From Olivibacter sp. SDN3 (lineage in GTDB: Bacteria; Bacteroidota; Bacteroidia; Sphingobacteriales; Sphingobacteriaceae), in NCBI RefSeq assembly GCF_014334135.1, contig NZ_CP060497.1, positions 5,828,001 through 5,892,000 on the forward strand: DNA of 64,000 bases, given 5' to 3'. Under the pieces are notes generated by a model, which saw only the letters and a list, made by a program, of their open reading frames with translations, was not told the DNA's origin and searched no databases. Shown in pieces: positions 1-19,783 of this stretch (the stretch's first letter is position 1; each line of letters begins with the position of its first letter). The position numbers and the translations under genes are program-made.

Positions 1-201
1 AATATCCAGGATAGCGAGTGTATCTCCCTTCCGGATAAAATCCCCTTCTTTTACGCGAAGCTCAACGATCTTTCCGGGAACCTTTGACACGATCCCGATT
101 TGCTCCCTTTCGATTTTTCCCTGAATGGTATTGCTTTCCGGTTTGTTGCACGCGGCACTCAACATCACGGTGATTGACAATAAAAAATATAGCTTTTTCA
201 T
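1..201 (-). CDS. HlyD-like membrane fusion protein, N-terminal part (cut by window edge)
   Basis: Only the first 67 residues are in the window; the frame stays open through base 1. The start ATG is at 201-199. The protein opens with a lipoprotein signal (MKKLYFLLSITVMLSAAC, lipobox Cys at residue 18), then reads into a biotinyl-lipoyl-like stretch containing VPGKIVELRVKEGDFIRKGD, typical of periplasmic adaptor subunits of tripartite export pumps. It lies 13 bases downstream of the TolC-like gene in the same direction, so the two are probably co-transcribed, with an inner-membrane ABC or RND partner presumably further left. Whether it is an RND or ABC adaptor cannot be told from this fragment. 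Confidence 0.85.
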   Translation of the reverse strand, partial: MKKLYFLLSITVMLSAACNKPESNTIQGKIEREQIGIVSKVPGKIVELRVKEGDFIRKGDTLAILDI

Positions 202-214
202 GTTGTTTGATGAT

Positions 215-1597
215 TTATCTTAAAACGGTTTTATTTAGTTCCCCTGTTACGGAAAGTGCCTCCAGTGCAGAGAGTCGCTGGTCGATCAACGTTTGGATTT
301 TATTTGTTGATGCCTTTAACAGGTCATTCTCTGCTTCCAATCGTTCCGAGATGCTGATCAGTCCTTCCTGGTATTGTTTAGTCGCCTTATCCAGGTTATG
401 AAAGGCTACTTTTTCCTGTTCCAATCCATTTTGGTATTTCTGGTTTTGGAGTCTGTAGTCCGATAGATTATTCGCTAGAAGCAAGGAAAATTTCTCTTTG
501 GTATCATCCAGTTGGTTCTGTACTTGTTGGGAACTTAATTTGGCTTCGTGTATTTTATGTTTCCGTTCAAAACCGCTGAATATTTCCCATTTCATCGACA
601 GCCCTACCATCCAGTTGGGACTTAGGGTAAATTCATTTACCCTCCCATGAAGACCGGAACCAAGGATAGGAATCGCAGGTGTGGACATATTAGCATTGAA
701 CAGGCTCGTATAAGCAAGGCCCCCAAAGGCGCCTAATACAGGTAAATAGCTTCCTTTTTCTTTTTTTATCATATAGTCGGACGCTTTTTTGAACGATTCC
801 AGTGCTCTGAGTTCCTGCTTGTTCTCAACGGAGAGGTCATCTTGAATGATGTAAGGCTTTAGTAAATATCGTACATCTCCGATTTGATTCTCGGAGTAGC
901 CGGTAAGGTAATTTATCTTTTGATAGAGGACTTTGCGCTTTCCCCGTAGCTCGATTTTTTTTGCCTGCAGTTCGAGGTTCGCCAGTTTGATTTTATCCCT
1001 GTCATACGGTATGGCCAAACCTTCTGCGATAGCGCGTTCTATCCGTTTGGTTTCCATGGCGAGGCGTTTTTCGCTATCATCTACGAGCTTTTCCAGTTCG
1101 TCCAGCAGATGGATCTGGTCAAATGAAGCGATCACGTCTTTTACCAGACTTTCTTTTTCCGCTTCCGAAAGGTAGGCTGTACCAATGCGTTTTTGCTCTA
1201 AGGCCTTTGCTCCGTTCTCGATCTGGAAGCCACTAAACAGAACTGTTTTTGCCATCAGGCTTCCGGCCAGGATATTGCCATTGTTATCCATTGAAGTTTT
1301 TCCATCATAAATCGGCTGGTCAATAATGGGAATTCTCTCTGTCGGTAAATCCAATGTTACTTTGGTGTCAAAATATAGATAACTTGCGGATCCTTCGACT
1401 TTCGGAACGTACTTGTTCCAAACACTTTGTTTTTCGGTATTGATTTTTTCTACTTCCAGGTTTTTGTTGCGTATGGAGGCATTCTTTTCAATCGCTTTCC
1501 TGACCGCCTCCTGCAAAGGGGGTGTTACCTCTATCTGTGCATGGCTGGACGTCGCAACCGCGACAGCTGCTACAAAAAATAAAATTTTCAGTTTCAT
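215..1597 (-). CDS. TolC family outer-membrane efflux protein
   Basis: 460 residues, the usual length for TolC/OEP proteins. A Sec signal peptide (MKLKILFFVAAVAVATSSHAQ) precedes two long, helix-rich halves with many Lys/Glu/Gln and heptad spacing, as expected for the periplasmic alpha-barrel, with beta-strand segments such as KVEGSASYLYFD between them. It would form the outer-membrane channel of an export pump whose adaptor is encoded just downstream (start at 201). No lipobox Cys is seen. Substrate unknown. Family assignment is firm; the exact export system is inference. Confidence 0.9.
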   Translation of the reverse strand: MKLKILFFVAAVAVATSSHAQIEVTPPLQEAVRKAIEKNASIRNKNLEVEKINTEKQSVWNKYVPKVEGSASYLYFDTKVTLDLPTERIPIIDQPIYDGKTSMDNNGNILAGSLMAKTVLFSGFQIENGAKALEQKRIGTAYLSEAEKESLVKDVIASFDQIHLLDELEKLVDDSEKRLAMETKRIERAIAEGLAIPYDRDKIKLANLELQAKKIELRGKRKVLYQKINYLTGYSENQIGDVRYLLKPYIIQDDLSVENKQELRALESFKKASDYMIKKEKGSYLPVLGAFGGLAYTSLFNANMSTPAIPILGSGLHGRVNEFTLSPNWMVGLSMKWEIFSGFERKHKIHEAKLSSQQVQNQLDDTKEKFSLLLANNLSDYRLQNQKYQNGLEQEKVAFHNLDKATKQYQEGLISISERLEAENDLLKASTNKIQTLIDQRLSALEALSVTGELNKTVLR

Positions 1598-2233
1598 TTA
1601 CTTAAATTTTTCGATTTCAAACCTTTACTGGTAATGCCGGTTTCATATAATTCCTCTTTCAGATTCTATATAGGTATCGGACCAATGCTTTATCTTTCCC
1701 GTCGTAGGCCCGTATTCTGTTCAGCATTTGCACGACTATCTTGATTGGACGGTGCTGAGACTTGATCAGGATATCATTTAGCAACTTGACGATTTCATCC
1801 CGAATCTGCTTTAGGCTATAAAAAGGCACTTGTATGCCATATATTGTTGTTTTCGCGAGTTCTATATTTGATTGAGAAATAAATTAAAATATCACTAAAA
1901 TAATAACTTTATAAGTTATTACAAACATTAAGTGTCATAGTATCAGGATTATTCAGACAATCATACGATACCTGATGTGGAAGCTTCATTTTATTATTTA
2001 TGGTATGTTACATAAATACCTTTTCCAAGCGCACGATTAGGACCATTGTTTGGATTATTTTCCTGAATATTTGCGCACTGAAAATTTTCCTGATCATATC
2101 TGACAGAAAAAGAGCGAATAATGCCGTTCATTCTTCAAACATGGGGTCTTGCCGGGCAATAAAAGCAAAGAGGTCAGGCAGCATCATCTGTGCCTGACCT
2201 ATGTAAAAAGCAGAGAGGTTATCAATTCTGTTT
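1598..2233. other. Gene-poor gap with a possible gene relic (minus strand 1880-1659)
   Basis: No convincing complete gene. On the minus strand the frame from 1883 down to a TGA at 1661-1659 is open for about 73 codons, has no ATG, and translates to coding-looking sequence including VPFYSLKQIRDEIVKLLNDI and ending in LVRYLYRI. The spacing of that motif loosely recalls the C-terminal region of IS21-type IstA transposases, but the following residues do not fit, so the family is left open. It may be a truncated gene end or use ATT at 1880. The plus-strand open frame at 2000-2197 has no family features and ends inside a hairpin, so it is not called. Confidence 0.4.
2171..2200 (-). terminator. Rho-independent terminator after the 3-hydroxyacyl-CoA dehydrogenase gene
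   Basis: A perfect 10-bp inverted repeat, AGGTCAGGCA at 2171-2180 and TGCCTGACCT at 2191-2200, with a 10-base loop. Read on the minus strand the stem is followed by a T-rich stretch (CTTTGCTTTTATT). It sits 34 bases beyond the stop of the leftward gene that ends at 2234. Confidence 0.7.
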
Positions 2234-3130
2234 CTATTTCAAGAAATCCTTTTCTTTGTACGCGGGGTTCGGGTATTGATAGAAACCTTCACCGGTAGAT
2301 ACACCAAGTTTGCCTTTATCGATGAAGTGCTCTTTCAGGTATTCCAGTGCCTTAAGCCGCAAGGGGTCCTGCGTTTTTTCTGCTGCCAGTTTATTGATGT
2401 TATAGGCCGTGGTAATGCCCACGACATCCAGTGCGGCAAAAGGGCCAACCGGTGCCCCGGTCGCCACCATCCAGGTCTTGTCTATCGTCTGTACATCAGC
2501 TACATCAGTGACCAACAGATTGATCGCCGCACCCAGGAACGGGACCAAAAGCGAATTGAGGATATAGCCGGGCTGTTCCTTGTGCAAGGGCAGTGCGATC
2601 ATGCCAATCGCCTTCGCAAATTCAACCAAGTCGTCGAAAATCTCCTTGTCTGTGCCGGGGTGGCCCATGATCTCTGCCGTATTGTTGATCCAAATGTTAT
2701 TCGCGAAATGCAATGCCAGAAATTTTTCCGGCCTACCGGTACTTTGTGCAAACTGGCTCGGTAAAAGTGTAGATGAATTTGTCGCAAAAATGGTTTTCTC
2801 CGGTGCAACTTTCGCCAGTTTTTCATAAAAGCCAATTTTGATTTCTGGACTTTCGGGAACGGCTTCAATAAGAAGGTCCGCATCTTTTACAGCTTCTACT
2901 AAGTCTGATTTATAAGCGAGGCGTGTTTTGGTGTCTGCTAATTGTCCGTCCGTCGCCGCTAAATCTCTTTTAAAGGCCGCCGCAAGAACATCAAATTTTG
3001 TTTTGGCCTTGTCCAAAACTTCATCATTGATATCATATACCGTAACGTTAAATCCGTGGAAAGCGGTTTGGAAGGCTATCTGATAGCCTAGTACGCCGCT
3101 GCCGGCAACAGTTATATTTTTGAAACTCAT
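2234..3130 (-). CDS. 3-hydroxyacyl-CoA dehydrogenase, NAD-dependent
   Basis: 298 residues, the usual length of stand-alone 3-hydroxyacyl/3-hydroxybutyryl-CoA dehydrogenases. It oxidises the 3-hydroxyacyl-CoA intermediate of fatty-acid beta-oxidation. Residues 9-14 carry the Rossmann motif GSGVLG followed by a strand ending VYDI; FATNSSTLLPSQ near residue 115 and ALHFANN near 141 match the family's NSS and catalytic-His regions; the C-terminal half is the helical dimerisation domain. It lies near an oleate hydratase, which suggests fatty-acid metabolism in this region, but the two are separated by a DUF2147 gene and gaps. The specific chain-length preference cannot be read. Confidence 0.9.
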   Translation of the reverse strand: MSFKNITVAGSGVLGYQIAFQTAFHGFNVTVYDINDEVLDKAKTKFDVLAAAFKRDLAATDGQLADTKTRLAYKSDLVEAVKDADLLIEAVPESPEIKIGFYEKLAKVAPEKTIFATNSSTLLPSQFAQSTGRPEKFLALHFANNIWINNTAEIMGHPGTDKEIFDDLVEFAKAIGMIALPLHKEQPGYILNSLLVPFLGAAINLLVTDVADVQTIDKTWMVATGAPVGPFAALDVVGITTAYNINKLAAEKTQDPLRLKALEYLKEHFIDKGKLGVSTGEGFYQYPNPAYKEKDFLK

Positions 3131-3339
3131 ACTGATATAGTTTTTAAAAATGATGGGTAAGATAGCTGTACTTACCCACCGAGTTGTTAAAAGTAAAAAT
3201 GTAATTGACTTTATACTGATAGCCTAAGCGAACCAAGAGTGTAGATGGAACTTGTAATCTGCGATACGGTGTCTGGTTTTAGCTATCTGTGGATGATGAT
3301 GTTTATTGATTCTATAGATTTCATGATTTGTTTTTACAC

Positions 3340-3768
3340 TCAGTTGCGGGTAAATACAGAAGTACGTCCGAACGCCGGGCTTCCTACATAGCCACGTACT
3401 TCCAGTTTCTCTCCGTTCATTTTCATTTCGCTGCTATAGGTCTTTCCAGACTTGGGATCATATACCTTTCCACTCGTCCATTTACCGTCTTTGTAAGTGA
3501 AGTTTTCGAGTATAACCGCATTGAGCAAGGGACGGCTGCGTAGCTTGCTGTCCTTGTTCTTGGCATCTTTGAGTGGTGTCTTGCCATCAGACTCCACGCT
3601 ATTCTTCATCCAGATAAGCTTTCCGTAGTATTTGCCATCTTTTTCATATACCTCAATCTTGCCGTCTTTCTCCTCGTTAAACCATACACCTTTGATGCTA
3701 CCGGCCTGTTGTGCAAACACGGTAGACGCAAATAAAACGATAGACAGTAATGAGATTATCTTTTTCAT
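3340..3768 (-). CDS. DUF2147 domain secreted protein
   Basis: 142 residues. A signal peptide (MKKIISLLSIVLFASTVFAQ) is followed by a single DUF2147 domain: GVWFNEEKDGKIEVYEKDGK, then LRSRPLLNAVILENF, then VYDPKSGKTYSSEMKMNGEK and a closing RGYVGSPAFGRTSVFTR. The family is a small exported beta-rich domain of unproven function, common in Bacteroidota and Proteobacteria. It lies 51 bases downstream of the oleate hydratase gene on the same strand, so co-transcription is possible. No biochemical role is claimed. Confidence 0.9.
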   Translation of the reverse strand: MKKIISLLSIVLFASTVFAQQAGSIKGVWFNEEKDGKIEVYEKDGKYYGKLIWMKNSVESDGKTPLKDAKNKDSKLRSRPLLNAVILENFTYKDGKWTSGKVYDPKSGKTYSSEMKMNGEKLEVRGYVGSPAFGRTSVFTRN

Positions 3769-3819
3769 ATTTTAAATTTTTTGTTTTATAAATTTTTGAC
3801 TGTCTCTCCAAAAAGTTCT

Positions 3820-5766
3820 TCAGCTTTTAAATCCCGCGACCCACTCTTTAAATTTGCCGAACTGTTCCGCCAAAAAAGATTCCTTTTCGTCTTCCTGGTG
3901 CACATCTGATCCAACAGGCAAGATGTGTTCGAAGTAAGTTCCTTTTAGTACTTTCCTTAGGAGGCCTTCGCCCAGAAAATGCCGGTCATCATTGAGCGTT
4001 TTGGTTGCTTTTAATAAGTGGCGGATGTCGTACTGCAAAGGGTTGATATCCGGCACCTGCTTGTTGAGGTTCAATAATTCATAGACCGCAACGCGCGCGG
4101 TTCTTACAGAACTTTCCATGGTAAATACCACATCGTTGTTGGTCTCCACAAACTGGCCAACCAACCCCAGGTTTTTACAGCCTTCCGGAATAATCTGTGG
4201 ACGGTCTCCTTTGGCTCTAGGCATAAACATTGAAGTTATGTAAGGCATATAGGCAGTACGTACGATCGTGTTTTCGATCACGTTATCTATCTGTTTCTCT
4301 ATTCCCAGATGGTAGCACAGTTCGGTTAGAATCTCATTCCCAGTAGCGGTGGGCATTGTCTTTTTGATATAATTGCCCTCCTTGTCCATGAAAAGGGCGT
4401 ATACCCATAGTACCAGAACATCGTCAGGCTGTGTAGGAAAGTGTGGCTGGCGGTTGCAGGTGAAGCTCATCAGCCAGTTGGAATCGGCAATGGTGATAAT
4501 CCCTCCCGTTACGGTTTTTCCGGAGTACGGGTCGTTCACCGAATATTCCTTCAGTTTTTCTATTAGCGCTGACGGCCTACAGGTTAAGGTCACGGACTCC
4601 CAGGAAGATTTTTCAATGTCGGAGCAGAATTTTTCCGGCCTGCCGAAGATCGGAGATTTGGCAGCAAGGTTCTTCCACAGCTTCCATCCCGCACTCTGAC
4701 CACTGGTACCGTTGTCCACCACCGGTATAGGAGCTGTCGCATTGGTTCCGTACGAGGTGTCTTCGGTCATTGAACCGGTAGTCACCACCACATAATCGTC
4801 TTCTGTGACCGGTATGATCACCTCAACGCCTTCCTGTTCGGTGATGATGCCCTTCACAGTTTTACCATCTGCATTGATGAGGATGTCTAGGTCTTTAACC
4901 AAGCTGTTGACCTGAAGCTTTACTCCCTTTTCCTTTAGCCATCTGCCCAATGGTGTAACAAAGGAATCGTATTGATTGTATTTCGGAAAAATCAACGAGG
5001 AAAGATCATTGAGCCCGTCGATAGCATGCAGGAACTTGTGCATGTATAGTTTGAACTCCAGCAGACTATGCCAATTCTCGAAAGCAAACATCGTGCGCCA
5101 TAACGTCCAGAAATTGCTAGACAGGAAGCTTTCGCCAAAGTAGTTCTCTATGGTAACATCGTCCAGATCTTCCTTCTTTTTAAGAAGTAATTTGATAATC
5201 GCAAGCTGGTCTTTTTTGCTCAGACCAAATTTACTGAAATCCTTTATAGCGCCTTGTTTATGGATCAAACGGGCGATAGAATAGTTGGAGTCATTATCGT
5301 TAACAAGACGGTATTCATCAAGCACGCTGTAAGGGGCGGGCAGTTCCAGCGCTGGGATATCCTGAAAAAGATCCCAGAGGTTTTCATACGTGCAGTCCAT
5401 TTCACGTCCGCCGCGGATAATATATCCTTCCGTAGCATTGCCGGCACCATCAAGAGAGCCACCTTCGATATGCAACTGCTCTATGAAAGTGATATTTTCG
5501 GGAATAAAATGGCCATCGCGGATAAAGTAGTACGCAGCTGAAAGTCCTGCGATACCGCTTCCGATGATATACACCTTGCTGTCTTTGTAAGACTTTGTGG
5601 GAATGCCTTTATTGCGTTGGTAATTCCCAATCTGATCTGCGAAAGGATAGGATTTTTCAGGTGTGTTCCGCAGTGTTTCTTTGCTGCTGTCCGGCTGGTG
5701 GTCAACCCTGCCATAAATGTCGGAAGCTTGAAGAACCTTGTCAAATTTTGATGTGATGTTTTTCAT
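3820..5766 (-). CDS. ohyA: Oleate hydratase (FAD-dependent fatty acid hydratase)
   Basis: About 648 residues from the chosen start [11 protein letters not shown] at 5766; an in-frame ATG 24 bases upstream (5790) lies next to a promoter-like GACCTTTG and adds residues not typical of the family. The enzyme adds water to the cis-9 double bond of oleate to give 10-hydroxystearate. The FAD fold motif [17 protein letters not shown] is near residue 52, followed by the family hallmark [11 protein letters not shown] and then [17 protein letters not shown], which includes the region of the catalytic Glu. Formerly called myosin-cross-reactive antigen. An AraC regulator is encoded immediately upstream on the same strand and may control it. 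Confidence 0.95.
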
Positions 5767-5862
5767 AAACGGATATCGTTTGATTAACATTACAAAGGTC
5801 AGGATATACTTAAACTCAATGGTATCCCTAAATTCGCCAATAATGTACGGAAATTCTTTTTT

Positions 5863-6735
5863 TTACAACGATTGCTGTTTTCGATATTCCTGAGGGGAGA
5901 TGGCTGCGTATTTCTTAAAAAAACGACCGAACGAAGATGTCGAACTGAATCCGGTATCGAGTGCTATTTGAAAAATGGTCTTTTCCGGATTCCCGAGCAA
6001 TACGCAGGCTTCTTTGAGCAGGTTCTCGTCTATGATTTCGTGGGGTGTTTTGCCGGTGGCCTTCTTGACTACCGTAATCAAGTATTTGTTGGTGATAAAC
6101 AATTTATCGGCATAAAATTGAACGTCTTTACGGAACGTAGCATTTTCTTGCACCAATTTCGTGAATTTAAAAAAAAGGTTGTTTGTTTCCTCGGTATCAT
6201 CTGTTTTTTCCGCTCGCTGAGTGTTAACAAGAGTCGCTATTTCGAGTAGGATATTTATAATAATGGTTCTGACGATGTCTTCGATGAACTTGCCTTGCCT
6301 CCCGGCCTGCTTATGGAGATAGTCGAGCAATGTGAGCAATCTCAGGGAAGACTCTGCTTCCGGAGCGACTATGCTGAAAGCCCGGTTTCTGAATAACGAC
6401 AGCTTTTCGATAAAAAAAGGATTAGAGATGTTCTTGAGCAGGAAGTTTTTTTCGAAGAAGAGGAGTTTCATTCTGAAATCCTTACTTATATGCACAAACC
6501 TTATAATGGTAGCTGGCGCCGAGACCAAGAAATTATTCAGACCTATACAATAATGGCGGTTGTCTATTTCGAGGTCTATCTTGCCGGATAAACAAATGCA
6601 AAATGCATAAAAATCCATTCTAAAAGCCTCTTTCGGAAATTCGAAGATGGGATTTCCGGAAGAAATATAATACGGTTTATTGTATTTCACACCATAGAAA
6701 GACAACGTCTCTTGTAGGCTTTCGTATGCTTTCAT
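5863..6735 (-). CDS. AraC family transcriptional regulator
   Basis: The chosen start MKAYESLQETL at 6735 gives 290 residues; the frame is open to 6810 but the extra 25 residues are basic and unlike the family. The N-terminal two thirds is a cupin-like effector domain; the C-terminal ~100 residues hold two helix-turn-helix motifs (YADKLFITNKYLITVVKKAT, then IFQIALDTGFSSTSSFGRFF) and the closing ISPQEYR signature. It sits upstream of, and in the same direction as, the oleate hydratase gene, so it is a candidate regulator of that gene, possibly responding to a fatty acid. The effector is not visible. Confidence 0.9.
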   Translation of the reverse strand: MKAYESLQETLSFYGVKYNKPYYISSGNPIFEFPKEAFRMDFYAFCICLSGKIDLEIDNRHYCIGLNNFLVSAPATIIRFVHISKDFRMKLLFFEKNFLLKNISNPFFIEKLSLFRNRAFSIVAPEAESSLRLLTLLDYLHKQAGRQGKFIEDIVRTIIINILLEIATLVNTQRAEKTDDTEETNNLFFKFTKLVQENATFRKDVQFYADKLFITNKYLITVVKKATGKTPHEIIDENLLKEACVLLGNPEKTIFQIALDTGFSSTSSFGRFFKKYAAISPQEYRKQQSL

Positions 6736-6810
6736 ATATGATAAATATTTACAAATGCGATTTCTATTTCGTGAGATTTTAAAAAAACGTGTGGAACAAG
6801 CTTTTTTCAA

Positions 6811-7668
6811 ATGTGCGAATCTTTGCGCTTACAATTTTACAAAACTATATTTTGGGTTGTATGATAATATTTGAAAAATACATATAACGGTCAATATGCG
6901 GGGTCAAGAAACCATTTTTGATATACTTAATAAGTTGGTGAATTCATTCAGTCATAAACTTGTAACCAGATTTCCACTGGCATACATGCCAATATTGGTG
7001 ACGACGATGACGCCTACGGAGTACAGGAAAATGTAGTATTTGCGTACAAACTAAAACGTGAAGGCTATTATACCATCAACTGGAATTGAAGTTACCGTCC
7101 CGCATTTCTGTGGGGATTGTGTAAATTAGCAGTCGGGAGTCACATTAGGCAATCGCGACGATGCCAAAAATAAAAAAGAAGAAATCGATCAATTCCTATC
7201 ACAATATGATGAACATGTTCATGCCAATCGTATTTGATAATTTATACACGTTACGCATATCCGTCAAAAGATCCAGCTGGTCATAGCAGTATAGGAAAAT
7301 GACACTCTGCAGTTTTCGAGGTATTTCCTAATAAAATTATTATCATATTCAATTGGTCAAAGATATAGTCTCTTGTATAAAAGCATCTAAAGTACTATAT
7401 TTGTTTTAGTTGAATAAAAGGTAATTACATCAAAATATTTGAGGATATTTTTGAGTTCTGTGACAAAATCATCTTATTTGATATAATTTGAACCGTGCCC
7501 CATTTCATGCCCTTATAATATTAATGGTTTTGTAAATGGTTGATATAAAGTTCTTTAGAGGAAGTGTGTAGTCGTACTGCCACTCCGACTTTACAAAAAC
7601 AAGCTCTTGCGAAAGTAAGGGCTTTTCTTCTTTTTGGTTGAGCATGCATTCTCAATAAGTTTAAATTT
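6811..7668. other. Gene-free relic zone left of the recombinase
   Basis: About 860 bases of AT-rich sequence without a credible complete gene. Two short plus-strand stretches look like ends of decayed genes: one about 6948-7089 translates to a piece ending VFAYKLKREGYYTINWN then stop, another about 7124-7239 includes KNKKEEIDQFLSQYDEHVHA and ends ANRI then stop. Neither has a start codon or a recognised family. A terminator-like hairpin at 7601-7624 also lacks a gene to serve. The picture fits debris from earlier insertions or deletions. Confidence 0.45.
7601..7635 (+). terminator. Orphan rho-independent terminator
   Basis: AAGCTCTT at 7601-7608 pairs with AAGGGCTT at 7617-7624 (8 bp, one G-T wobble; 8-base loop), followed by TTCTTCTTTTT. 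It points rightward, yet no intact rightward gene ends nearby, which suggests the gene it served has been lost. Confidence 0.55.
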
Positions 7669-7683
7669 TTTTGGGTACTACCT
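7669..7683 (+). repeat. Left copy of a 15-bp direct repeat (candidate att core or operator)
   Basis: TTTTGGGTACTACCT occurs here and again, perfectly, at 9823-9837. The pair brackets the 53-residue gene, the serine recombinase and the HTH gene. The inner GGTACTACC is an imperfect palindrome (GGTA-C-TACC). It ends 60 bases before the ATG of the small gene at 7744. Confidence 0.6.
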
Positions 7684-7743
7684 TGTGTGTTGTCAATATA
7701 AGTATTCTCTTTTAAACATCATTGCGTTTAAAATGATAATACA

Positions 7744-7905
7744 ATGGAGAGACAGCAAGAGACAAATCGTTCAATCAACCCAAAAAAGGCGGCAGCAATT
7801 TTAGCTAAAAACGGGGTGCATCTGAATGAAAAAAAAGTGGAAGAAATTTTGGATGTTATGTATTTTTTGGCTAAATTAATTGTGAATCAGAACTTTAAAA
7901 AATGA
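7744..7905 (+). CDS. Small protein (53 aa) translationally coupled to the serine recombinase
   Basis: ATG at 7744, stop TGA at 7903-7905 overlapping the recombinase start (ATGA at 7902-7905), a classic arrangement for translational coupling. The product begins MERQQETNRSINPKKAAAIL and continues with a predicted helical segment EKKVEEILDVMYFLAKLIV. Short proteins of this kind, with a conserved KxAxxIL...VEEILxxxY pattern, are often found directly before serine recombinases in Bacteroidota mobile elements; their function is not established. It is too short for many gene finders. The tight overlap is the main support for it being real. Confidence 0.75.
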   Translation: MERQQETNRSINPKKAAAILAKNGVHLNEKKVEEILDVMYFLAKLIVNQNFKK

Positions 7906-9644
7906 AAACTGCCGATCTTTATATTCGTGTTAGCACAGACGAACAGGCCGATAAAGGTTACTCCCAACGTGACCAAGAAGAAAGGCTACAAAAATATTGT
8001 CAAGCTAACGACATAACAGTAAGAAAGATAGTTCATGAGGATCATTCGGCCAAAACTTTTAATAGACCTGAATGGGAAAAACTATTAGTTTTCCTGAAAA
8101 AGAATAAACGTAAATCAGATTTTGTGCTGTTTACCAAATGGGACAGGTTCAGCAGAAGTGCACCCGACGCATATCAAATGATCAATATATTAAAAGGGCT
8201 GGGAGTTGAACCACAGGCAATCGAACAACCCTTGGATATGTCTGTTCCCGAAAACAAGATGATGTTAGCGATCTATCTTACAGCTCCTGAAATAGAAAAC
8301 GACAGAAGGGGACTGAATGTGTTTTACGGGATGAGAAGAGCAAGGAAAGAGGGGAGATGGCCAGCGAAGGCACCAGTTGGTTATGTCAATAGGATTTCGG
8401 AAAGTGGCAAAAAATTTATAGCAATTGAAGAACAACAGGCTTCTATCATGCGATGGGCGTTTGAAGAAATTGCCAAGGCGAAATATTCAACTGAACAGGT
8501 GTTCAAGAAAGCTCACAAAATGGGGCTAAAATGTGGAAAGAATAATTTCCTTCTATTGATAAGAAATCCGGTTTATTGCGGCAAAATACCAGTACCTAAA
8601 TTTAAAGATGAAGAAGAACAGTTGGTTAATGGACAACACGAGCCTTTGATCTCGCCACATTTGTTTTATAAAGTTCAGGCCATATTAAATGGAAAACATA
8701 GGGTGACAAACACCAAAATACTTTCGCCTAGTCAATTGCCATTGAGGGGCTATTTAAATTGCTCCAAGTGCACTAGAACGCTTTGTGGTAGTGCTTCTAA
8801 AGGAAGGAATGCCTATTATTACTATTATCATTGTTCTTCAACATGTGGATGCAGATACAAAGCAGTTGAGGTAAACAACGAGTTTCTACAGGTTCTGTCA
8901 GAATATACGCTAAATGAGAATATGGCAGAACTGTTCAAATATGTAATAATTGATACCTATTCCAATGATACAGTGGAATATCAGGCGAATAAGAGCGAAT
9001 TTCTCAAGAGCATTGCCAGTTTTAAAGAAAGACTAAACAAGGCTAGGGAACTCCTTCTTAACGGTGATATTGATGGAAAGGATTATAAAGAAATAAAGGA
9101 TGATTGTGAAAGCAATATAATGCTGTATGAATCAGAATTGGAGAAACTCTCAAGAAATAAGTACAGCAAAAAGGAGCTAGAGTCCGTAATTGACAAAGCA
9201 ATCTTCATTCTAACGAAAGTAGATTCAATTTTCTTTAAATCAGATAGTTACGGAAAGCGAAAGATAATTGGTTCGATGTTTCCAGAAAAGTTTACGTTTG
9301 AAAATTTAAAAGCTCGAACCGCTATTGTAAGTCCAGTGTTCAATTGTATTTATCTGATTAACAAGGAATTGCAAGGAAATAAAAAAGGGCAAAATGCTGT
9401 AAAAAACATTTTGCCCAGTAAGGTGCTCCTTGTGGAGCTTGAACCAAGAATCAAAATATATAGGGGTGTTTTGCTAATTAGATATCTTTTCTGTGTTATT
9501 GTGTATTCATCAAATCGAGTATATCCTCATACTTATAATACATCAATCCCCCAATTTTGGAGTATCTCAGAGTACCATTTCTTCTTAGTGTCTGTAATGT
9601 ACCAGCAGATATACCCAAAAGATTACGCACTTCATAACTTTTAA
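7902..9644 (+). CDS. Large serine recombinase with an unusual C-terminal tail
   Basis: 580 residues. The N-terminal resolvase domain has the nucleophile region LYIRVSTDEQ (Ser11) and KWDRFSRSAPDAYQMI near residue 86; a Recombinase domain follows (PVGYVNR, then LIRNPVYCGKIPVPKF); next a zinc-ribbon CSKCTRTLC...CSSTCGC at about 285-320, and a charged coiled coil at about 370-440. Such enzymes integrate and excise mobile elements through a serine-DNA intermediate. The family-like body ends near residue 510; the last ~70 codons run antisense through a terminator hairpin and the neighbouring HTH gene and look non-native, as if the original stop had been lost at a junction. Coupled to the 53-residue gene upstream. 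Confidence 0.92.
   Translation: MKTADLYIRVSTDEQADKGYSQRDQEERLQKYCQANDITVRKIVHEDHSAKTFNRPEWEKLLVFLKKNKRKSDFVLFTKWDRFSRSAPDAYQMINILKGLGVEPQAIEQPLDMSVPENKMMLAIYLTAPEIENDRRGLNVFYGMRRARKEGRWPAKAPVGYVNRISESGKKFIAIEEQQASIMRWAFEEIAKAKYSTEQVFKKAHKMGLKCGKNNFLLLIRNPVYCGKIPVPKFKDEEEQLVNGQHEPLISPHLFYKVQAILNGKHRVTNTKILSPSQLPLRGYLNCSKCTRTLCGSASKGRNAYYYYYHCSSTCGCRYKAVEVNNEFLQVLSEYTLNENMAELFKYVIIDTYSNDTVEYQANKSEFLKSIASFKERLNKARELLLNGDIDGKDYKEIKDDCESNIMLYESELEKLSRNKYSKKELESVIDKAIFILTKVDSIFFKSDSYGKRKIIGSMFPEKFTFENLKARTAIVSPVFNCIYLINKELQGNKKGQNAVKNILPSKVLLVELEPRIKIYRGVLLIRYLFCVIVYSSNRVYPHTYNTSIPQFWSISEYHFFLVSVMYQQIYPKDYALHNF
9381..9416 (-). terminator. Terminator of the leftward HTH gene, inside the recombinase frame
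   Basis: GGGCAAAATG at 9387-9396 and CATTTTGCCC at 9407-9416 form a perfect 10-bp stem with a 10-base loop. On the minus strand it is followed by TTTTTT (plus 9386-9381), a canonical intrinsic terminator placed 80 bases after the HTH gene stop. It also encodes KGQNAVKNILP of the oppositely transcribed recombinase. Confidence 0.8.
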
Positions 9645-9762
9645 GCCATTCCTTTTGTTCCTGCTTTTTATGTATTCCGAAAGCTGGTCTTTTTAACTCT
9701 GCAAAAAGCTCTTTCTTGAACTTCTCTAAGTCCTCTTTTGTAATAAATTCAATAGTTGCCAT
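9496..9762 (-). CDS. Helix-turn-helix protein of mobile-element (excisionase/MerR) type
   Basis: 88 residues from MATIEFITKEDL at 9762; in-frame ATGs at 9783 and 9801 are possible but the chosen start matches the usual opening of this Bacteroidota family. The N-terminal half is a charged helix (EDLEKFKKELFAELK); the C-terminal half is a winged HTH of the helix_turn_helix_17/excisionase type: WLKSYEVRNLLGISAGTLQT, then RYSKIGGLMYYKYEDI. Such proteins accompany tyrosine integrases in conjugative or mobilisable elements and are thought to act as directionality factors or regulators. It is followed by a terminator at 9416-9381 and fully overlaps the recombinase's 3' tail on the other strand. Confidence 0.85.
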   Translation of the reverse strand: MATIEFITKEDLEKFKKELFAELKRPAFGIHKKQEQKEWLKSYEVRNLLGISAGTLQTLRRNGTLRYSKIGGLMYYKYEDILDLMNTQ

Positions 9763-9822
9763 GTCTTTTGTTTTTATCTTCATGACAAAGTTCACTATCA
9801 ATTTACTGAGAAACTGACAACC

Positions 9823-9837
9823 TTTTGGGTACTACCT
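9823..9837 (+). repeat. Right copy of the 15-bp direct repeat
   Basis: TTTTGGGTACTACCT, identical to 7669-7683, lying between the integrase stop (9858) and the HTH start (9762). It begins 60 bases upstream of the HTH ATG, mirroring the 60-base spacing of the left copy to its gene, so it could be either an attachment core or a shared operator. Confidence 0.6.
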
Positions 9838-9857
9838 AAAAAATAATTCATAACCAA

Positions 9858-11108
9858 TCAAATGGCGTGTAATAATGATTCGTTCCTTTTCGCCATAAGA
9901 GACTTCATATCATTTGCAACTTTCTTTTTCTTCACCTTTGCATATATCTGCGTCGTGCGAATACTGGCATGTCCAAGCATAGCCGAAACGCTTTCAATAC
10001 TTACCCCGTTCTCCAAAGTAACAGTGGTGGCAAAGGTATGACGCGCCACATGGAAAGTGACCTTTTTGCTGATACCGGCAAGGGCAGCAATTACCTTTAA
10101 ATACCTGTTGGTTGTTTGGTTTGTGTAGTAGGGAAATATTGTTCCTTTTCCAAGTGATGCGGGATGATTTCTGTACTTTTCAATCAATTCCAACGCTTCG
10201 GGTAAAAGCAGTACAAAAAATTTCTGCTCGGTGGTGTTAAAGGTTTTCTTTCTTGTCATTTCCAGCCATTGGTCACCGTTTTCATCCCGAATGATATGCC
10301 CGTGACTGAAATTACATATTTCACTGTATCCCAATCCGGTGTAACAACTGAAAAGGAACATATCCTGAACTACGATTTGGCCGAATTTGAAGAGCTTGAC
10401 CTTTCTGAATCTTTCCAGTTCATTACTATCAAGCGGTTCCCTGTCTTTTCTCACCATCTTTCGCTCAAAATGCTCAAAGGGATCGTTCTTGATCCACTTG
10501 TTTTTCAGGGCAATGCCTACCATCTTTTTAAGCCTTTCCATGTGCTTCATGGCAGTATTATTGGAGCAGGGGCGTTGCCCTTTATCGGGCTTACGTGTTA
10601 GTAGGAAAATTTTAAAATCAGTGATGAACTGGTTTCCGATCTGGGAAAGGTGGATGTCCACTCTTTTCTTTAGCGAGATAAATTCATGGATGAAGCGCTC
10701 GGTAGTCCGGTAGTTCTTCATTGTTCCTTCTGTGAGCACCTTACCAATTACCGTGTTGTGGTATTTGAGCAGCGCTTTCAATGTACTGATCTCAACATTG
10801 ACACCTAAGACCTTTGCTTTGATCGATTCCGAAGAAACTGGCTGTTTGTCCCTGACAAGTTCATCGTACGCATTGTCAATATCTTTCCTATAGGACCTTA
10901 GCTTACCACTGGCACGTTCATCTTCGTTTGTCTTGCTTTCAATTTTCTGTTTATCATGGTTCCATGATGAAATATTGACCCTATATTTAAGGGAAAGGTC
11001 AGCAGGTACTCCGTCCACCCATATACGTGCGTAGAGCGGTGCAGTACCTTTGCTGGCTTTGTCTTTCTTAAGAAAGAACTGAAAATTGAATGTGTGATGG
11101 CTTGTCAT
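9858..11108 (-). CDS. Tyrosine recombinase, IntDOT-like integrase
   Basis: 416 residues, typical of Bacteroidota conjugative-transposon integrases. Domains: arm-type DNA-binding domain (about 5-90, FQFFLKKDKASKGTAPLYAR), SAM-like core-binding domain (about 110-215), catalytic domain to the end. Catalytic residues seen: HVARH at 353-357, LGHAS near 378-382, and the tyrosine nucleophile in IYAKV (Tyr389). The usual first catalytic Arg of TGLR is Gly260 here (TGLGYSEI), as in CTnDOT-type integrases, which lack this Arg. The start ATG lies within a GATATG motif. It is transcribed away from tRNA-Pro, whose 3' end is 277 bases upstream. Confidence 0.93.
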   Translation of the reverse strand: MTSHHTFNFQFFLKKDKASKGTAPLYARIWVDGVPADLSLKYRVNISSWNHDKQKIESKTNEDERASGKLRSYRKDIDNAYDELVRDKQPVSSESIKAKVLGVNVEISTLKALLKYHNTVIGKVLTEGTMKNYRTTERFIHEFISLKKRVDIHLSQIGNQFITDFKIFLLTRKPDKGQRPCSNNTAMKHMERLKKMVGIALKNKWIKNDPFEHFERKMVRKDREPLDSNELERFRKVKLFKFGQIVVQDMFLFSCYTGLGYSEICNFSHGHIIRDENGDQWLEMTRKKTFNTTEQKFFVLLLPEALELIEKYRNHPASLGKGTIFPYYTNQTTNRYLKVIAALAGISKKVTFHVARHTFATTVTLENGVSIESVSAMLGHASIRTTQIYAKVKKKKVANDMKSLMAKRNESLLHAI

Positions 11109-11134
11109 ATCATTTGCCCCTTTCTATGCCATTC

Positions 11135-11183
11135 TGATATGTTTTGCCGCCCTTAAAAAGTTAGGGCATAACAAAACATATCA
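11135..11183. repeat. 49-bp interrupted palindrome upstream of the integrase
   Basis: TGATATGTTTTG at 11135-11146 is perfectly inverted as CAAAACATATCA at 11172-11183, and an inner pair GCCCT/AGGGC sits between them. Further GATATG copies lie at 11111-11106 (minus, covering the integrase ATG), 11291-11296 and 11311-11316, the last two within a repeated CTTGATATG. Arm- or core-site binding by the integrase, or autoregulation, is a reasonable inference. Confidence 0.6.
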
Positions 11184-11325
11184 AAAGGCATTAAAATAAA
11201 TTTAAACAACTGAATTACAATTGATTACATCTATTTCAAGCACAATAATACGAGAAAAGAACAGGGCACGGAATAGGGCACAAAAACCTTGATATGCCTT
11301 GTATTATCTTGATATGACAAAAATG

Positions 11326-11361
11326 AAAAAAGCCCCTAAATGTGATATTTAGAGGCTTTTT
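11326..11361. terminator. Bidirectional terminator downstream of tRNA-Pro
   Basis: AAAAAGCCCCTAAAT (from 11326) pairs with ATTTAGAGGCTTTTT (to 11361) with one mismatch and a short loop; A-run and T-run flank the stem so it can work in both directions. It lies 24 bases beyond the tRNA 3' end and 218 bases upstream of the integrase. Confidence 0.8.
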
Positions 11362-11384
11362 GTAGGCTTTTGTTGCCTATGCTG

Positions 11385-11458
11385 TCGGGGTGGCAGGATT
11401 CGAACCTACGACCTCCACATCCCAAATGTGGCGCGATACCGGGCTACGCTACACCCCG
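11385..11458 (-). tRNA. tRNA-Pro (anticodon TGG)
   Basis: 74 bases, 5' end at 11458. The 7-bp acceptor stem CGGGGTG/CACCCCG closes with discriminator A; anticodon stem-loop CCACA-TTTGGGA-TGTGG gives anticodon TGG; the T arm has GGTTCGAATCC. No CCA is encoded. The 3' end faces the integrase, the usual arrangement for an integration target, but no second copy of its 3' end was found to the left in this window. Confidence 0.96.
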
Positions 11459-11508
11459 ATCATGGTATCTTTCCCATTTACAGAAACCAATTCTCGGTAA
11501 ATGGAGTG

Positions 11509-11540
11509 CAAATATACGATATTTTTTTAATCTTCAACAA
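11509..11540 (-). promoter_or_regulatory. Bacteroidota-type promoter of tRNA-Pro
   Basis: On the minus strand TATATTTG (plus 11516-11509) matches the TAnnTTTG -7 element, with TTG triplets 18 and 21 bases further upstream (plus 11535-11540). The tRNA 5' end is about 50 bases downstream; an 8-bp inverted repeat (CCATTTAC 11474-11481 / GTAAATGG 11497-11504) lies in the leader. Confidence 0.65.
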
Positions 11541-11604
11541 TTTTTTATCTTCACCTTGGAATTATAGATTATATTGGCAGGAACACAACGCTATTTTATC
11601 ATCT

Positions 11605-12753
11605 TTATACTTTGATACTTAATAATTTAGCAATAACTGTTCCCGTCCTTATTAAATTCTGCCGGGTAAGCTTTAAAGCATCTGCTAAAAGCATAGGTTC
11701 ATGACCTATAGGCAATAGCACATCGAAAGCAGCCTGCATATCAACGTTATAGCGTACAGGCACCTTCCCCGCTAGAGCAATTACAGGCTTTCCCTTTTCT
11801 TTAGCTTTCATTGCTACACCAAATGGCCCTTTGCCTCCCAATGTCTGGCTATCTAAACTTCCTTCCCCGGTTATCAGCAGATCAGCCTTCGTCAATGCTT
11901 CTTCCAAACCTGTCAGTTGCATAAAATGCGTTATACCGTTTACCAGCTGAGCGCCCAGTGCGCCGTACAGGCCTCCTGCCGCTCCTCCTGCTACCCCTCC
12001 AGCATCTACAGCAGCCATATTTCTGCCGGTTGCTTTTTCAACGTGTACACTTAGACGGCTTAAAAAGCCTTCCAAAGCTCTTACCTCCTGCTTGTTTGCT
12101 CCTTTCTGCGGACCAAATACGGCTGCAGCACCTTTAGCTCCCAACAACCTATTCTCCACATCGCAAAGAATGGTAATTTTCACCTTTTGCAAGCGTTTAT
12201 CCAGGTCGCTTAAATCAACTCTTGCGAGCGATTGCAGATTTGCCGGATATACGTCTAAAGCGGCTCCTTGTTCATCATAGAAACGCGCACCCAAGGCAGC
12301 CAATATTCCGCAACCACCGTCTACCGTAGCAGACCCACCCATCCCAATAATCAGCTCCTTGACTCCCTGATCCAAAGCGTCGATGATTAATTCGCCGGTT
12401 CCGTAAGAAGACGCTCGCAAAGGATCACGTTCTTCATCTTTTAGTAGTTTTATTCCCGAAGCATTTGCCATCTCGATAAGAGCTACCTCCTTCTGGCGAA
12501 TTAAGCCGTAGCTCGCTTCAACCGGTTCTCCCAAGGGTCCCGCAACCGTTTTTAATACCCGTTTTCCAGTCAATTGATGCAACAGTAAATCAATGGTACC
12601 ATCACCTCCATCACCTATTGGAAAATATACAAGCTCTCCCCTGTATCCACCTGCCCGCAAGCCCTCACCAATAGCCTTTGCTGCCGCTAACGCGTCCAAA
12701 CTGTGCTTAAAAGCATTGGGAGCCAATAATATCGATTTAGTTTCCGTATTCAT
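11605..12753 (-). CDS. Glycerate kinase
   Basis: 382 residues, the usual size for the GlxK/GarK family, which phosphorylates D-glycerate with ATP, feeding it into glycolysis. Visible signatures: APNAFKHSLDALAAAKAIGE at the N-terminus (family APxxFKxSLxA), FPIGDGGDGT near 45, IGMGGSATVDGGCGILAALG near 135, and ITGEGSLDSQTLGGKGPFGV near 290. It lies 55 bases downstream of a GntP-type permease in the same direction, together a probable uptake-and-phosphorylation pair for glycerate or a related sugar acid. Whether the product is 2- or 3-phosphoglycerate is not readable. Confidence 0.94.
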   Translation of the reverse strand: MNTETKSILLAPNAFKHSLDALAAAKAIGEGLRAGGYRGELVYFPIGDGGDGTIDLLLHQLTGKRVLKTVAGPLGEPVEASYGLIRQKEVALIEMANASGIKLLKDEERDPLRASSYGTGELIIDALDQGVKELIIGMGGSATVDGGCGILAALGARFYDEQGAALDVYPANLQSLARVDLSDLDKRLQKVKITILCDVENRLLGAKGAAAVFGPQKGANKQEVRALEGFLSRLSVHVEKATGRNMAAVDAGGVAGGAAGGLYGALGAQLVNGITHFMQLTGLEEALTKADLLITGEGSLDSQTLGGKGPFGVAMKAKEKGKPVIALAGKVPVRYNVDMQAAFDVLLPIGHEPMLLADALKLTRQNLIRTGTVIAKLLSIKV

Positions 12754-12808
12754 ATGTATATCATTTCGTCATCGAGTAAATATCAGTACAGGTATTGGCT
12801 TATTATGC

Positions 12809-14149
12809 TTATAAAAGAACGATTGCTAACAGATAAATACAAATGATCGCAACTACGCCCATAAAACAGGTCGCAACACTATATACCTTCAACATCGCCT
12901 GCATAGGTAAACCAGAAAATTTGGCAATTACCCAGAAATATGCATCGTTGGCATGCGAAATCATCATGGAACCAGCGCCCAGCGCAAGTACACAGATAAC
13001 CCTTCCCGATTCACTTTCCAGGCCTAAACCTGTTAGTAAAGGTGTAACAATAGATGCAGCGGTAATAACGGCTACTGTAGATGAGCCTTGAGCCGTTTTT
13101 AGCACAGTTGCTATCAGAAACGGAAAGAATAAGCCTAGGCTAGCTATCGGGATATTTTCAGCAAAGTGCCGGCCTAGGTCGGCTTCAGCCAAGATAGCCC
13201 CAAAAGCACCACCTGCACCTATTATAACCAATATTCCGGCCGCTTTCTCCACTCCGTCGTGTAATAACTTTGTAACTGTTTGTCCAGCCATTCGATGGTT
13301 ACCCATAAATACCAGTATGATACCGATGATTAAAGCAACTTCCGGCATTCCTATCGTGAGAAGCACTTGTTCGGCGATGCTTCCAACAACAAAGGAACCC
13401 ATAAAAAATGATCGTAAGGCAATTAAGGCGATGGGTACCAGTATAGGCATTATTGCTGCGACTAACGAGGGGTGATGTGGCATAGAACGTTCATCAGTTG
13501 AGCTAAGGTTATTTTTGTGCAGCGCTATTTTCCGGCCGGCATATTTTGACCATAAGTAGCCGCAGTATGAAGCAGGGACCGCCACCAACAGTCCATACAG
13601 TATTACTGCACCAAAATCTGCCTCCAATGTCTCGGTAGCCGCTGCCATACCAGGATGTGGGGGCATCAAACAGTGTACCGCATAAAGTCCTGTAGCCAAT
13701 GAGGAAGCCATTATCAATAAAGACGTGCCGGAACGGGCAGCCAGTTCTTTATTCAATCCGTTTAACACGATAAAACCTGAATCGCAAAATATGGGCATGC
13801 CCACTATATAGCCACTGATATTCATTGCTAACGCAGATCTATCAGCGCCCACCTTCGAAAGAATAAAATTGGCAATGACCGTCGTACTGCGGGTATATTC
13901 CAATAATACCCCCAAAGTGGTACCTAATACGATAATTAATGCCAACGATCCAATAATATGTCCGAAACCCTCCTTAGCAACCCGAAGACTCTCCGTTAAC
14001 GGCAACTGAATAATGGTGCCCACCCATAAACATGCCGCTAACAGCGCAAAAAAAGCATGCATTCGATAACGGACAGTAAGCAATATAATCAACAAAATGC
14101 CGGTGAGCAGTGCTATTATACTTTGCCAGAAAGAAACTTCATGCGTCAT
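12809..14149 (-). CDS. GntP family gluconate/sugar-acid permease
   Basis: 446 residues from MTHEVSFWQSI at 14149; the frame opens at 14200 but the extra 17 residues (with two Cys) interrupt the usual start just before the first membrane helix. About twelve hydrophobic segments span the protein. GntP-type features include GYIVGMPIFCDSGFIVL near 110-125, HCLMPPHPGMAAA near 155, and the helix-rich C-terminal half with KTAQGSSTVAVITAAS. It imports gluconate-like acids with protons; the glycerate kinase immediately downstream suggests glycerate as substrate (inference). The RND operon to the right ends 24 bases before the 14200 frame start. Confidence 0.9.
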   Translation of the reverse strand: MTHEVSFWQSIIALLTGILLIILLTVRYRMHAFFALLAACLWVGTIIQLPLTESLRVAKEGFGHIIGSLALIIVLGTTLGVLLEYTRSTTVIANFILSKVGADRSALAMNISGYIVGMPIFCDSGFIVLNGLNKELAARSGTSLLIMASSLATGLYAVHCLMPPHPGMAAATETLEADFGAVILYGLLVAVPASYCGYLWSKYAGRKIALHKNNLSSTDERSMPHHPSLVAAIMPILVPIALIALRSFFMGSFVVGSIAEQVLLTIGMPEVALIIGIILVFMGNHRMAGQTVTKLLHDGVEKAAGILVIIGAGGAFGAILAEADLGRHFAENIPIASLGLFFPFLIATVLKTAQGSSTVAVITAASIVTPLLTGLGLESESGRVICVLALGAGSMMISHANDAYFWVIAKFSGLPMQAMLKVYSVATCFMGVVAIICIYLLAIVLL

Positions 14150-14223
14150 AAACTTCAGGAAATGGTTATTCCGGCAAGATACAGAATAACCAATACCCAT
14201 ACAACTGCACGCTCCTGCTTAAA

Positions 14224-17200
14224 TTAGGCATCCGCTTGGGCTACCTCAGATTCAATTTTTGGAGGCATCAATTTATAGACCACGGGTGTAACGATACGTG
14301 ATAATAATGTCGAGCTGATCAGGCCTCCTATCATTACGATAGCCAAAGGTGAAATGAGCGGATTGCTTGACCATGCAATCGGAGTTAGTCCACCTATCGC
14401 CGTGAGTGTTGTTAAAATGATAGGTAAAAATCGAATCTCTCCTGCTTTCTCAATCGCTTCGTTCAGCTCCATTCCTTCTCGGCGTAATTGGTTTGTAAAA
14501 TCAACCAGCAATATCGTATTTTTCACTTCTATTCCTGCTAGAGCTATGATGCCAATAGTTGCTACAAAAGAAAGGGAATTACCCGTTACCAGCAAAGCCA
14601 ATACCGCACCAACAATACCTAAAGGGATAACTGAAAGAACAATCAAGGTACTTTTAAACGTTTTAAACTCCAGTACCAGCACGGCAATAAACAGGAATAC
14701 AGTAATGATAATCACTGTTGCGAAACCACCAAAAGACTCCTGTCTGCTTTCTACTTCCCCTCCCATCTCATAATGATATCCTTCGGGTAATTCGTTGGCA
14801 TCCATTTTTGTGATCACATCGTTAATCACCCGATCATTTAAATACCCTTTTTGCACAAATGCATTCACCGAAACGGTCCGGATTTTATTGATATGGTTAA
14901 TACTCACTGGAGATGATTCAAAGTCGAGCGCAGCCAATTGCTTAAGAGGAACAGCCATTCCTTCCACATTATTTACATATAGATTATCGAAAACAGCTAA
15001 ATCAGCATGTGCTTTCCTCGGAACACTTAAACGGATTCGATAATCGTCATCATCCAACTCGGGGTTGGTATACGTTGCAAGATCAACACCGGCAATAGCC
15101 ATCCGCACTGTACGGTCAATCGCTACACTCGGCACCCCTAAACTCAACGCTTTTTCTTTATCGATAGTTAAGCGGATATCTGTCTTGTAATTCTTCACCG
15201 GGTTATTTACATAAATGGTACCTGCAGTTTCTTTCAACAGTGTCTCTGCTGTTGCGGCCAAAGAACGTAAAGTATCTAGGTTTTCACCAAACAAACGTAT
15301 TTCTACAGGAGAGATAATGGGTACGCCTTGCTCAAAATCTTTCACTTCCACTTTAGCTCCGAGATAAGGCGTCCAACGCCTACGCAGATCTTCTATAATT
15401 TCCGATTTCCGATCGGATCTAATATCAGGGTGCAACTGCACAAAAATTTCCGCGAAATCACTGCGTTGATTCTGCTGCGGAACGTTATAATAAATCCGAG
15501 GATTACCTTTGCCGACATTGGTGGTATAATACTTCACTTCCGGGATCGCCGATAGCTCGGCTTCAATGTTTCGGGTTACACTATCGGTGTAAAAAATATT
15601 TGCCTGCTGGGGCGCCGATATATCAATTAGGAATTGAGGTTTCTCTGATGCAGGAAATAAACTAAACCCTATTACCGGCAGTAAGCCCAATGATCCTCCG
15701 AAAATAATTACGGCAATCAGTATGGTTAACCAAGGTTTCTTTAGCGCTTTATCGAGTAACACGGCATATGTACTATGAATTACACGTTGAAAAGTACGCA
15801 ATACCACATTCCCTTCCGGGTGCTCATGAGCCTTTAATATCCTGCTGGATAGAAACGGAACCACCGTTAATGCTATCAGCATAGATGCCACCACTGTACT
15901 GATAACGGCCACGGGTAAGCTCCGAATAAAATCGCCCGAAGCTTCCGGCATGAACATCAAAGGCATAAACGCGATACATAAGGTTGCTGTACACCCCACA
16001 ACAGCCATAGCTATTTGCTGCGTACCTTTAATGGCTGCTTCTAACCTGGTGTGCCCTTCCCTTAACCACCGTTCGATATTTTCTACTACCACTATGCTAT
16101 CATCAACGAGGAGTCCAAGGGCTACAACGAAACCCACTATACTCAACTGGTTTAAACTATAGCCAAAGGCATTTAATAAAATCAACCCAATGGAAAGCGA
16201 TAAAGGAATAGCGATCATAACCACAATAGAAGCTCGATTGCCTAACGGGAGCAAGGTAATCAACACCAGCGATACGGCAATCAGAAAATCAATACCTAAA
16301 CCACTTAACCGGTGATTAACATTTTCTGCCTGGTCAAAATGTAATATCAAATCAATATTTTTCGGTAAGCCTTGCTTAAATTTATCGATGGCAGGCAGAT
16401 ATGCTTCTTGCGTTTTACTGATATTCTCGCCTGTTTTTTGTGCGGCATTAATCAGCAGACTACGATATCCGTTCAGGCGGGTGATATGATCGTCGGGAGC
16501 AAAATCAGTATACACATCCGCCACGTCCCGCAAGAGTACATTTTTACCGGCACTACTAAAAACAATCGTATTTTTTATCTGCTCGATGCTTTGGTAATTT
16601 CCACTAGTTTTAACACTGAATGACTTTCCTCCGGCTAGCACACTTCCCCCAGGAATATTACTGGCCTCACTCTGTATCGCGTCCATGACCGTACTCATGG
16701 GAATATGCATTTGCGACAAACGGTCTTGCTTCACGTCCACGCGAACCAACTGCTCGGGCAAACCGCTTATCTTGACCTCTTTCAACGAAGGAATCTTTTC
16801 CAGTTCATCCTGTAAATTTTCTGCTGCCTTTTTTAGTGCCTTACGGGACGCGTTTTGTGAGATAAGAGCCAGCTGTAATACGTTGACACCGCTAGGTTCT
16901 ACTTTCTGTATATCAATTGAATAAATATCCTGTGGTAACTGTGGCCTTAGCGCGCTGATTTCACGCACAAGTTCTTGATATTTATCGTCGTAATCACTCT
17001 CAAACTGATATTCAACAGTTAACACGGCTAAACCATTCAAGATATTAGTCTTGATACGCTTGATGTTATCCAGACCATATATTGTTGTTTCCAGCGGCTT
17101 AACCACCAGCTCTTCCATATCCTTAGGACTAGTTCCCGGATACACCACTACCACCGGGAACATCGGGGTACGCATTTCCGGGTCTTCTGCTCTTGGCATG

Positions 17201-17292: not shown

Positions 17293-17339
17293 ATCATTAA
17301 CCTCTTTAACTGTTTACTTATGCTGTAACTTCAGTGAAT

Positions 17340-19752: not shown

Positions 19753-19754
19753 TA

Positions 19755-19767
19755 TTAACAGTGTTAT
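19755..19767. promoter_or_regulatory. Candidate TetR operator upstream of tolC
   Basis: TTAACAGTGTTAT: a near-perfect palindrome with central G, 2 bases from the tolC ATG. It matches the reverse complement of the palindrome at 20464-20476 at 12 of 13 positions. Confidence 0.6.
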
Positions 19768-19783
19768 TTGTTTATCAAAAAAA

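Follow-up and report, generated by a model that had tools for sequence, protein, structure and literature searches.

What is a short direct repeat doing around a serine recombinase gene? The question is raised by a 64,000-nucleotide stretch of the Olivibacter sp. SDN3 genome (positions 5,828,001–5,892,000 of contig NZ_CP060497.1; hereafter, the window), where two copies of the 15-bp sequence TTTTGGGTACTACCT, identical and on the same strand, enclose a gene for a 53-aa protein (the small gene), the open reading frame (ORF) of a large serine recombinase and a helix-turn-helix (HTH) gene (coordinates in Table 1). An earlier note on this DNA read the repeat primarily as the attachment core of a minimal element and, alternatively, as a near-palindromic operator of a shared regulator lying 60 bases from two start codons. 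The alternative is strongly supported by the recurrence and the fixed register of the box described below, and we consider it highly probable that the two 15-bp copies contain the palindromic centre of a conserved regulatory box, which heads two convergent predicted promoters of mobile-element genes and which, as part of one regulon, would be bound by a common regulator. One of these promoters would drive the 53-aa gene together with the serine recombinase, and the other the excisionase-like HTH gene of the adjoining tyrosine-integrase element.

The repeat and the three genes that it encloses are found where the earlier note placed them, and the distance to the start codon is indeed 60 bases on each side (small gene, start at 7744; HTH gene, start at 9762). 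A genome-wide exact search detects no third copy of TTTTGGGTACTACCT in the whole 6.1 Mb. Taken by itself, a 15-bp repeat is unremarkable: the window contains four exact direct repeats of at least 15 bp within 2.2 kb, and at least one such repeat is present in 11 of 60 dinucleotide shuffles of the window (mean 0.2), so the claim that a chance repeat would be very unlikely was overstated. It is the context that makes the TTTTGGGTACTACCT pair real. In the direction of its gene, each copy is followed after 7 bp by TTGTCA and then, in a register common to both, by a -7-like octamer; the match is therefore not chance. The shuffles would accommodate a coincidence, but the two 22-bp composites are in identical register and recur in other genomes, where the genes behind them belong to a limited set from mobile elements. 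This recurrence already contradicts a chance origin, to which we assign a negligible probability.

Each repeat, read towards its gene, is part of a composite box of 22 bases, GGTASTACC-N7-TTGTCA. The aligned window-type copies have in common a T-rich stretch, GGTASTACC, 7 bp and TTGTCA, followed by a conserved TTG, the end of the -7-like octamer, which lies at +32 in 25 of the 30 aligned rows and at +31 in three, two of the 30 rows looking like chance matches. Given a -7 box at -12 to -5, as stated in the part of the source consulted (PMC9723704), the centre of the box would be located near -51 and TTGTCA at -39 to -34. Many relatives of the recombinase also have a palindrome before the small gene, mostly 42–64 bp from its start codon and, in loci L033, L035, L041 and L044, within 3 bp of the position in the window, with letters that vary among relatives (TTCGGTAGTACCGAA, GGGATATACC, TCCAATATTGGA, ATCAGTAGTACTGAT and others). 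A second copy of the palindrome, identical in L033 and near-identical in L041 and L044, precedes a MobC-like gene (the domain was tested for the L033 gene and for a gene of L161 with a start resembling that of L044; L033 also encodes a relaxase domain), and in L030, L038 and L026, second copies precede genes without a known family (the family search covered the L038 and L026 genes).

The window-type box is not confined to this locus. The pattern GGTANTACC-N7-TTGTCA is present at 54 places in 43 of 399 family genomes, and 30 of the loci were examined. Among these, 19 are C/G-centred, 16 of which lie outside ORFs of at least 80 aa, and all 11 A/T-centred ones lie inside. In other mobile elements, the box recurs in front of excisionase-like HTH genes, of operons with the small gene and the serine recombinase, of mobC and of tra operons. 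Downstream of the 19 C/G-centred boxes, the genes assigned are HTH genes (six cases), tra operons (four, one of them assigned by eye, by likeness to L196 and L197), small-gene operons (two) and a MobC gene (one). The HTH_17 domain was confirmed for the box-headed genes of L172 and L178. In the integrative and conjugative element (ICE) of the same genome, the first tra gene behind the box matches no family, and those that follow it include DUF4133, TraG, TraJ and TraM. In another genome (G058, contig 18), only two GGTASTACC boxes occur in 100 kb, one at an HTH gene and the other between an RteC gene and tra genes; this HTH gene adjoins a tyrosine integrase 54% identical to that of the window, and no serine recombinase was found there.

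Several observations weigh against this explanation. A reversed control pattern yields 23 matches compared to 54, so part of the box matches are due to chance; no gene was assigned at 6 of the 19 C/G-centred loci; and the left -7-like octamer in the window is weak, with 4 of 6 letters. A second palindrome class, ACTCTASTAGAGT, considered as a general code, was rejected, being detected in 5 of the 399 genomes, below its reversed control, and before the small gene in two of the five.

Could the repeats instead be attachment cores, attL and attR, at the ends of a minimal element of 2.15 kb that consists of the small gene, the serine recombinase and the HTH gene? The recombinase does lie between them, and the flanks are symmetric, with GTTGTCA equidistant on the inner sides and A-rich sequence on the outer ones, an arrangement conceivable for an attP/attB pair; we at first favoured this interpretation because of the symmetry. 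The symmetry, however, follows from two promoters facing each other. An attachment core would be expected at both ends of an element and not in recombinase-free loci, but other elements also have the box, in front of their HTH, mobC or tra genes, a recurrence that the earlier note itself had named as incompatible with a core. Among 36 HTH loci (30 from one search and six box loci), 35 lack a serine recombinase in the 1.5-kb flanks, the window being the sole exception. Nor does the repeat coincide with the element ends of the relatives, which terminate in tRNA 3' ends; the corresponding tRNA stub of the window is located inside the bracket. A joined empty site was not found in a left-flank search of 60 genomes (the outer right flank was not searched). 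Given the tRNA ends and the recurrence of the box, we rejected the attachment-core interpretation, which appears very improbable.

The serine recombinase itself seems to have a different end. The ORF has the Resolvase N-terminal (PF00239, E = 1.9e-24) and Recombinase (PF07508, E = 4.9e-13) domains that characterise large serine recombinases; in most of the closer relatives, the alignment extends as far as residue 515–520 or thereabouts, and the remainder of the window ORF reads through the tRNA stub. We scanned 89 recombinase loci (the window, 80 relatives from one search and 8 from another, with two Olivibacter jilunii loci counted twice, L005 = L071 and L010 = L069) and found an antisense tRNA gene that begins 1509–1539 nt past the recombinase start in 68 of them, a fixed distance which implies that the recombinase gene reads into the tRNA 3' end. 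Nine kinds of tRNA are involved, namely His, Met, Arg, Lys, Asn, Gln, Glu, Ser and Leu. One of the remaining loci is too short, and 20 have no antisense tRNA at that distance, including L045, where a tRNA is present at the end of the matched stretch. By eye, a tRNA 3' half breaks off just past the T-loop (..GAACC) in L033, L048, L073, L076, L078, L016 and the window, and in others of the 20 loci the break is earlier or later. In the window, the stub lies about 380 bases inside the right repeat, after a hairpin; no second site resembling it exists in the same genome within 3 mismatches. The position of the stub and the tRNA 3' ends of the relatives therefore place a probable end of the recombinase element inside the bracket, and the attachment site proper to this recombinase is probably a tRNA 3' end, retained in the window as the stub. 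No repeat of the tRNA 3' region of at least 14 bp was found left of the recombinase within the sequence of the scanned loci, and 7 of 74 loci contain the tRNA 3' half twice, with the additional copy always to the right of the recombinase. Since no far ends were found among the relatives, the attachment pair of the tRNA-end recombinases remains a candidate.

As an observation in its own right, the window (9387–9445) and loci L004–L016 and L026–L105 delineate a large serine recombinase family that runs into tRNA 3' ends in fixed register, with stubs often broken at the T-loop. In the sections of the literature consulted, tRNA 3' ends are given as sites of tyrosine integrases, and integrative and mobilizable elements (IMEs) with serine recombinases are described as disrupting genes (PMC5704250, PMC5357655). 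A site type described there for tyrosine integrases appears to be occupied here by a serine recombinase family. The family resembles the serine-recombinase IMEs, such as Tn4451 and the streptococcal IMEs, in that relative L033 has MobC-like and relaxase genes, and, judging from the same partial sources, differs from them in residing at tRNA 3' ends, with a conserved small partner gene, rather than disrupting genes. A tRNA-targeting serine IME of Bacteroidota was not found in the literature searched, most subscription papers being outside it.

Which protein reads the box? Among the closest known systems is the RteC-controlled excision and transfer of CTnDOT, an ICE of Bacteroides, together with the helper-dependent excision of the IME NBU1. 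The excision promoter of CTnDOT drives the small HTH genes xis2c and xis2d, and upstream of its -33 region lies an inverted repeat to which RteC binds. In the present case, a palindromic box likewise stands in fixed register before HTH_17 genes; the letters of the RteC site were not found in the literature searched. According to the part of the source seen, CTnDOT RteC controls excision and transfer genes, and regulatory genes of this ICE also influence other elements present in the same cell (PMC1976400). The box described here differs in that it also heads tra, mobC and serine-recombinase operons, with RteC genes located directly upstream of tra.

RteC (PF09357) has nine matches in the Olivibacter genome. 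One of these genes (5672188–5673048), 162 kb from the window, is directly followed by the third box of this genome and the tra operon, and, of 36 RteC genes examined, 8 are followed by GGTASTACC at a distance of up to about 190 bp. The box-bearing RteC proteins are partly clustered on the RteC tree (5 changes, compared to 7.4 on average after shuffling, with 10 of 500 shuffles giving so few). No RteC relative was found in PDB at E = 1. Another RteC gene of the same genome (L155) is separated from an HTH gene by a long palindrome. From the RteC neighbourhood of the box, and from the control of excision and transfer by RteC in CTnDOT, we favour, with fair but not strong confidence, an RteC-type activator as the regulator. 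Such a trans-acting protein, most likely that of a resident ICE, would bind the box near -51 and jointly switch on four kinds of operon, those for transfer (tra), excision (HTH), mobilization (mobC) and the serine recombinase.

This assignment also meets with difficulties. The other 28 of the 36 RteC genes have no box within about 190 bp, and the sample was selected by similarity to the box-bearing RteC, with six others of the same genome added. Moreover, the mobilizable-type loci L033 and L044 have the box, no RteC in the stretch seen, and genes for a HEPN protein and a regulator of the XRE type, so that a different protein may read the box. The same box and promoters could accordingly be read by an HTH_17 protein, an XRE repressor, a HEPN protein or the 53-aa protein, and, with the box heading HTH genes, autoregulation would be allowed. 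Against these candidates stand the eight RteC genes with a box behind them and the boxes at tra operons without an HTH_17 gene directly downstream, and we regard another reader as a real but less probable alternative to an RteC-type activator. Separately, in both loci the XRE-like and HEPN-domain genes are located between the relaxase gene and the recombinase operon (L033:3398–5367 and L044:3450–5336; the XRE domain was tested for L033 only).

Table 1. Features of the Olivibacter sp. SDN3 locus, in window coordinates
Feature	Position	Strand	Remarks
Left repeat copy, 15 bp	7669..7683	+	
Left composite box GGTACTACC-N7-TTGTCA	7674..7695	+	Heads small gene/serine recombinase operon
Left -7-like octamer CATCATTG	7717..7724	+	4/6 letters of TAnnTTTG; TTG at +32 from TTGTCA; promoter function predicted
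53-aa gene	7744..7905	+	Orphan family; two predicted helices
Large serine recombinase ORF	7902..9644	+	Resolvase and Recombinase domains
Hairpin after conserved recombinase part	9387..9416	+	In relatives too, before tRNA
Antisense tRNA 3'-end stub (..TTGAACC)	9425..9445	+	Probable element end of serine recombinase
HTH_17 (excisionase-like) gene	9496..9762	-	
Right -7-like octamer GAACTTTG	9786..9793	-	5/6 letters of TAnnTTTG; register as in left octamer; promoter function predicted
Right composite box GGTAGTACC-N7-TTGTCA	9815..9836	-	Heads HTH gene
Right repeat copy, 15 bp	9823..9837	+	
Tyrosine integrase of adjoining tRNA-Pro element	9858..11108	-	
tRNA-Pro (TGG)	11384..11458	-	Probable integration site of tyrosine-integrase element
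Diverged tRNA-Pro 3' end and terminator	7577..7634	+	Inverted relative to tRNA-Pro at 11384

Of 78 relatives searched, 46 have a small gene similar to the 53-aa one in front of the recombinase. In Pfam, the window protein has no family above the cut-off and 23 family members have no convincing one, and NCBIfam contains no family for it. Comparison with PDB listed repeat proteins, TAL effectors among them, in which no single stretch passed by itself, and weak matches such as phosphonoacetaldehyde hydrolase (E about 0.001) that were taken as chance. The predicted structure consists of two helices (mean predicted local distance difference test score 84), for which the best Foldseek match has E = 1.9. 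The protein is a possible directionality factor or regulator. A short conserved ORF with a motif like KGRKFHGTPYLKLKKV lies beside the small gene, and is transcribed away from it, in L034, L045, L050, L051, L075, L248 and L249.

The best reading of the locus is that it joins the integrase end of one element to the recombinase end of another. The HTH and tyrosine integrase genes look like the integrase end of an element at tRNA-Pro; in two congeners (L239 and L240), tRNA-Pro lies beside a similar gene, which we take to encode a kinase, with no integrase in the 1.5 kb seen. The small gene and the recombinase resemble the end of another, mobilizable-type element. An IME has its own relaxase and no conjugation apparatus; inspection by eye of the ORFs in window 1–20000 revealed no relaxase-like one (the domain search covered five proteins only), and the window copy is at most a remnant of a mobilizable element.

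A repeat of the tRNA-Pro 3' end was not found in the window by exact words of at least 14 or with up to 7 mismatches in 30, and the left-flank search revealed a shorter, diverged and inverted copy (Table 1). In window 7477–7634, this copy is preceded by 100 bp that are 77% similar to the end of the ICE at 5661–5701 kb of the same genome. Both ends of that ICE (G000:C1:5661138–5661195 and 5700559–5700714) also carry tRNA-Pro 3'-end copies, in inverted orientation. The inverted copies point to past rearrangement, and the locus as a whole looks like an element graveyard that has been rearranged. With respect to the ICE that contains the third box, two near-identical IS3-like ORF pairs, named by eye, are located inside it (G000:C1:5666348–5667510 and 5686439–5687601), and its TraG ORF matches about the first half of the family model only, so its transfer genes may be broken.

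Beyond this locus, we tentatively propose, as a suggestion that falls somewhat short of an even chance, that, in Sphingobacteriaceae, a common promoter code read by RteC-type activators (GGTASTACC-N7-TTGTCA, along with other palindromes in the same place) serves both ICEs and those mobilizable elements whose serine recombinases target tRNA genes. If this is the case, a single signal from an ICE would trigger the transfer of the ICE itself and also cause its passengers to be excised and mobilized, and the two window promoters potentially still answer to the RteC protein encoded 162 kb away. What had been presumed to be an insertion scar would become a readable regulatory signature, and searching for the box might allow dormant mobile elements to be matched, by prediction, with the ICE regulators that control them.
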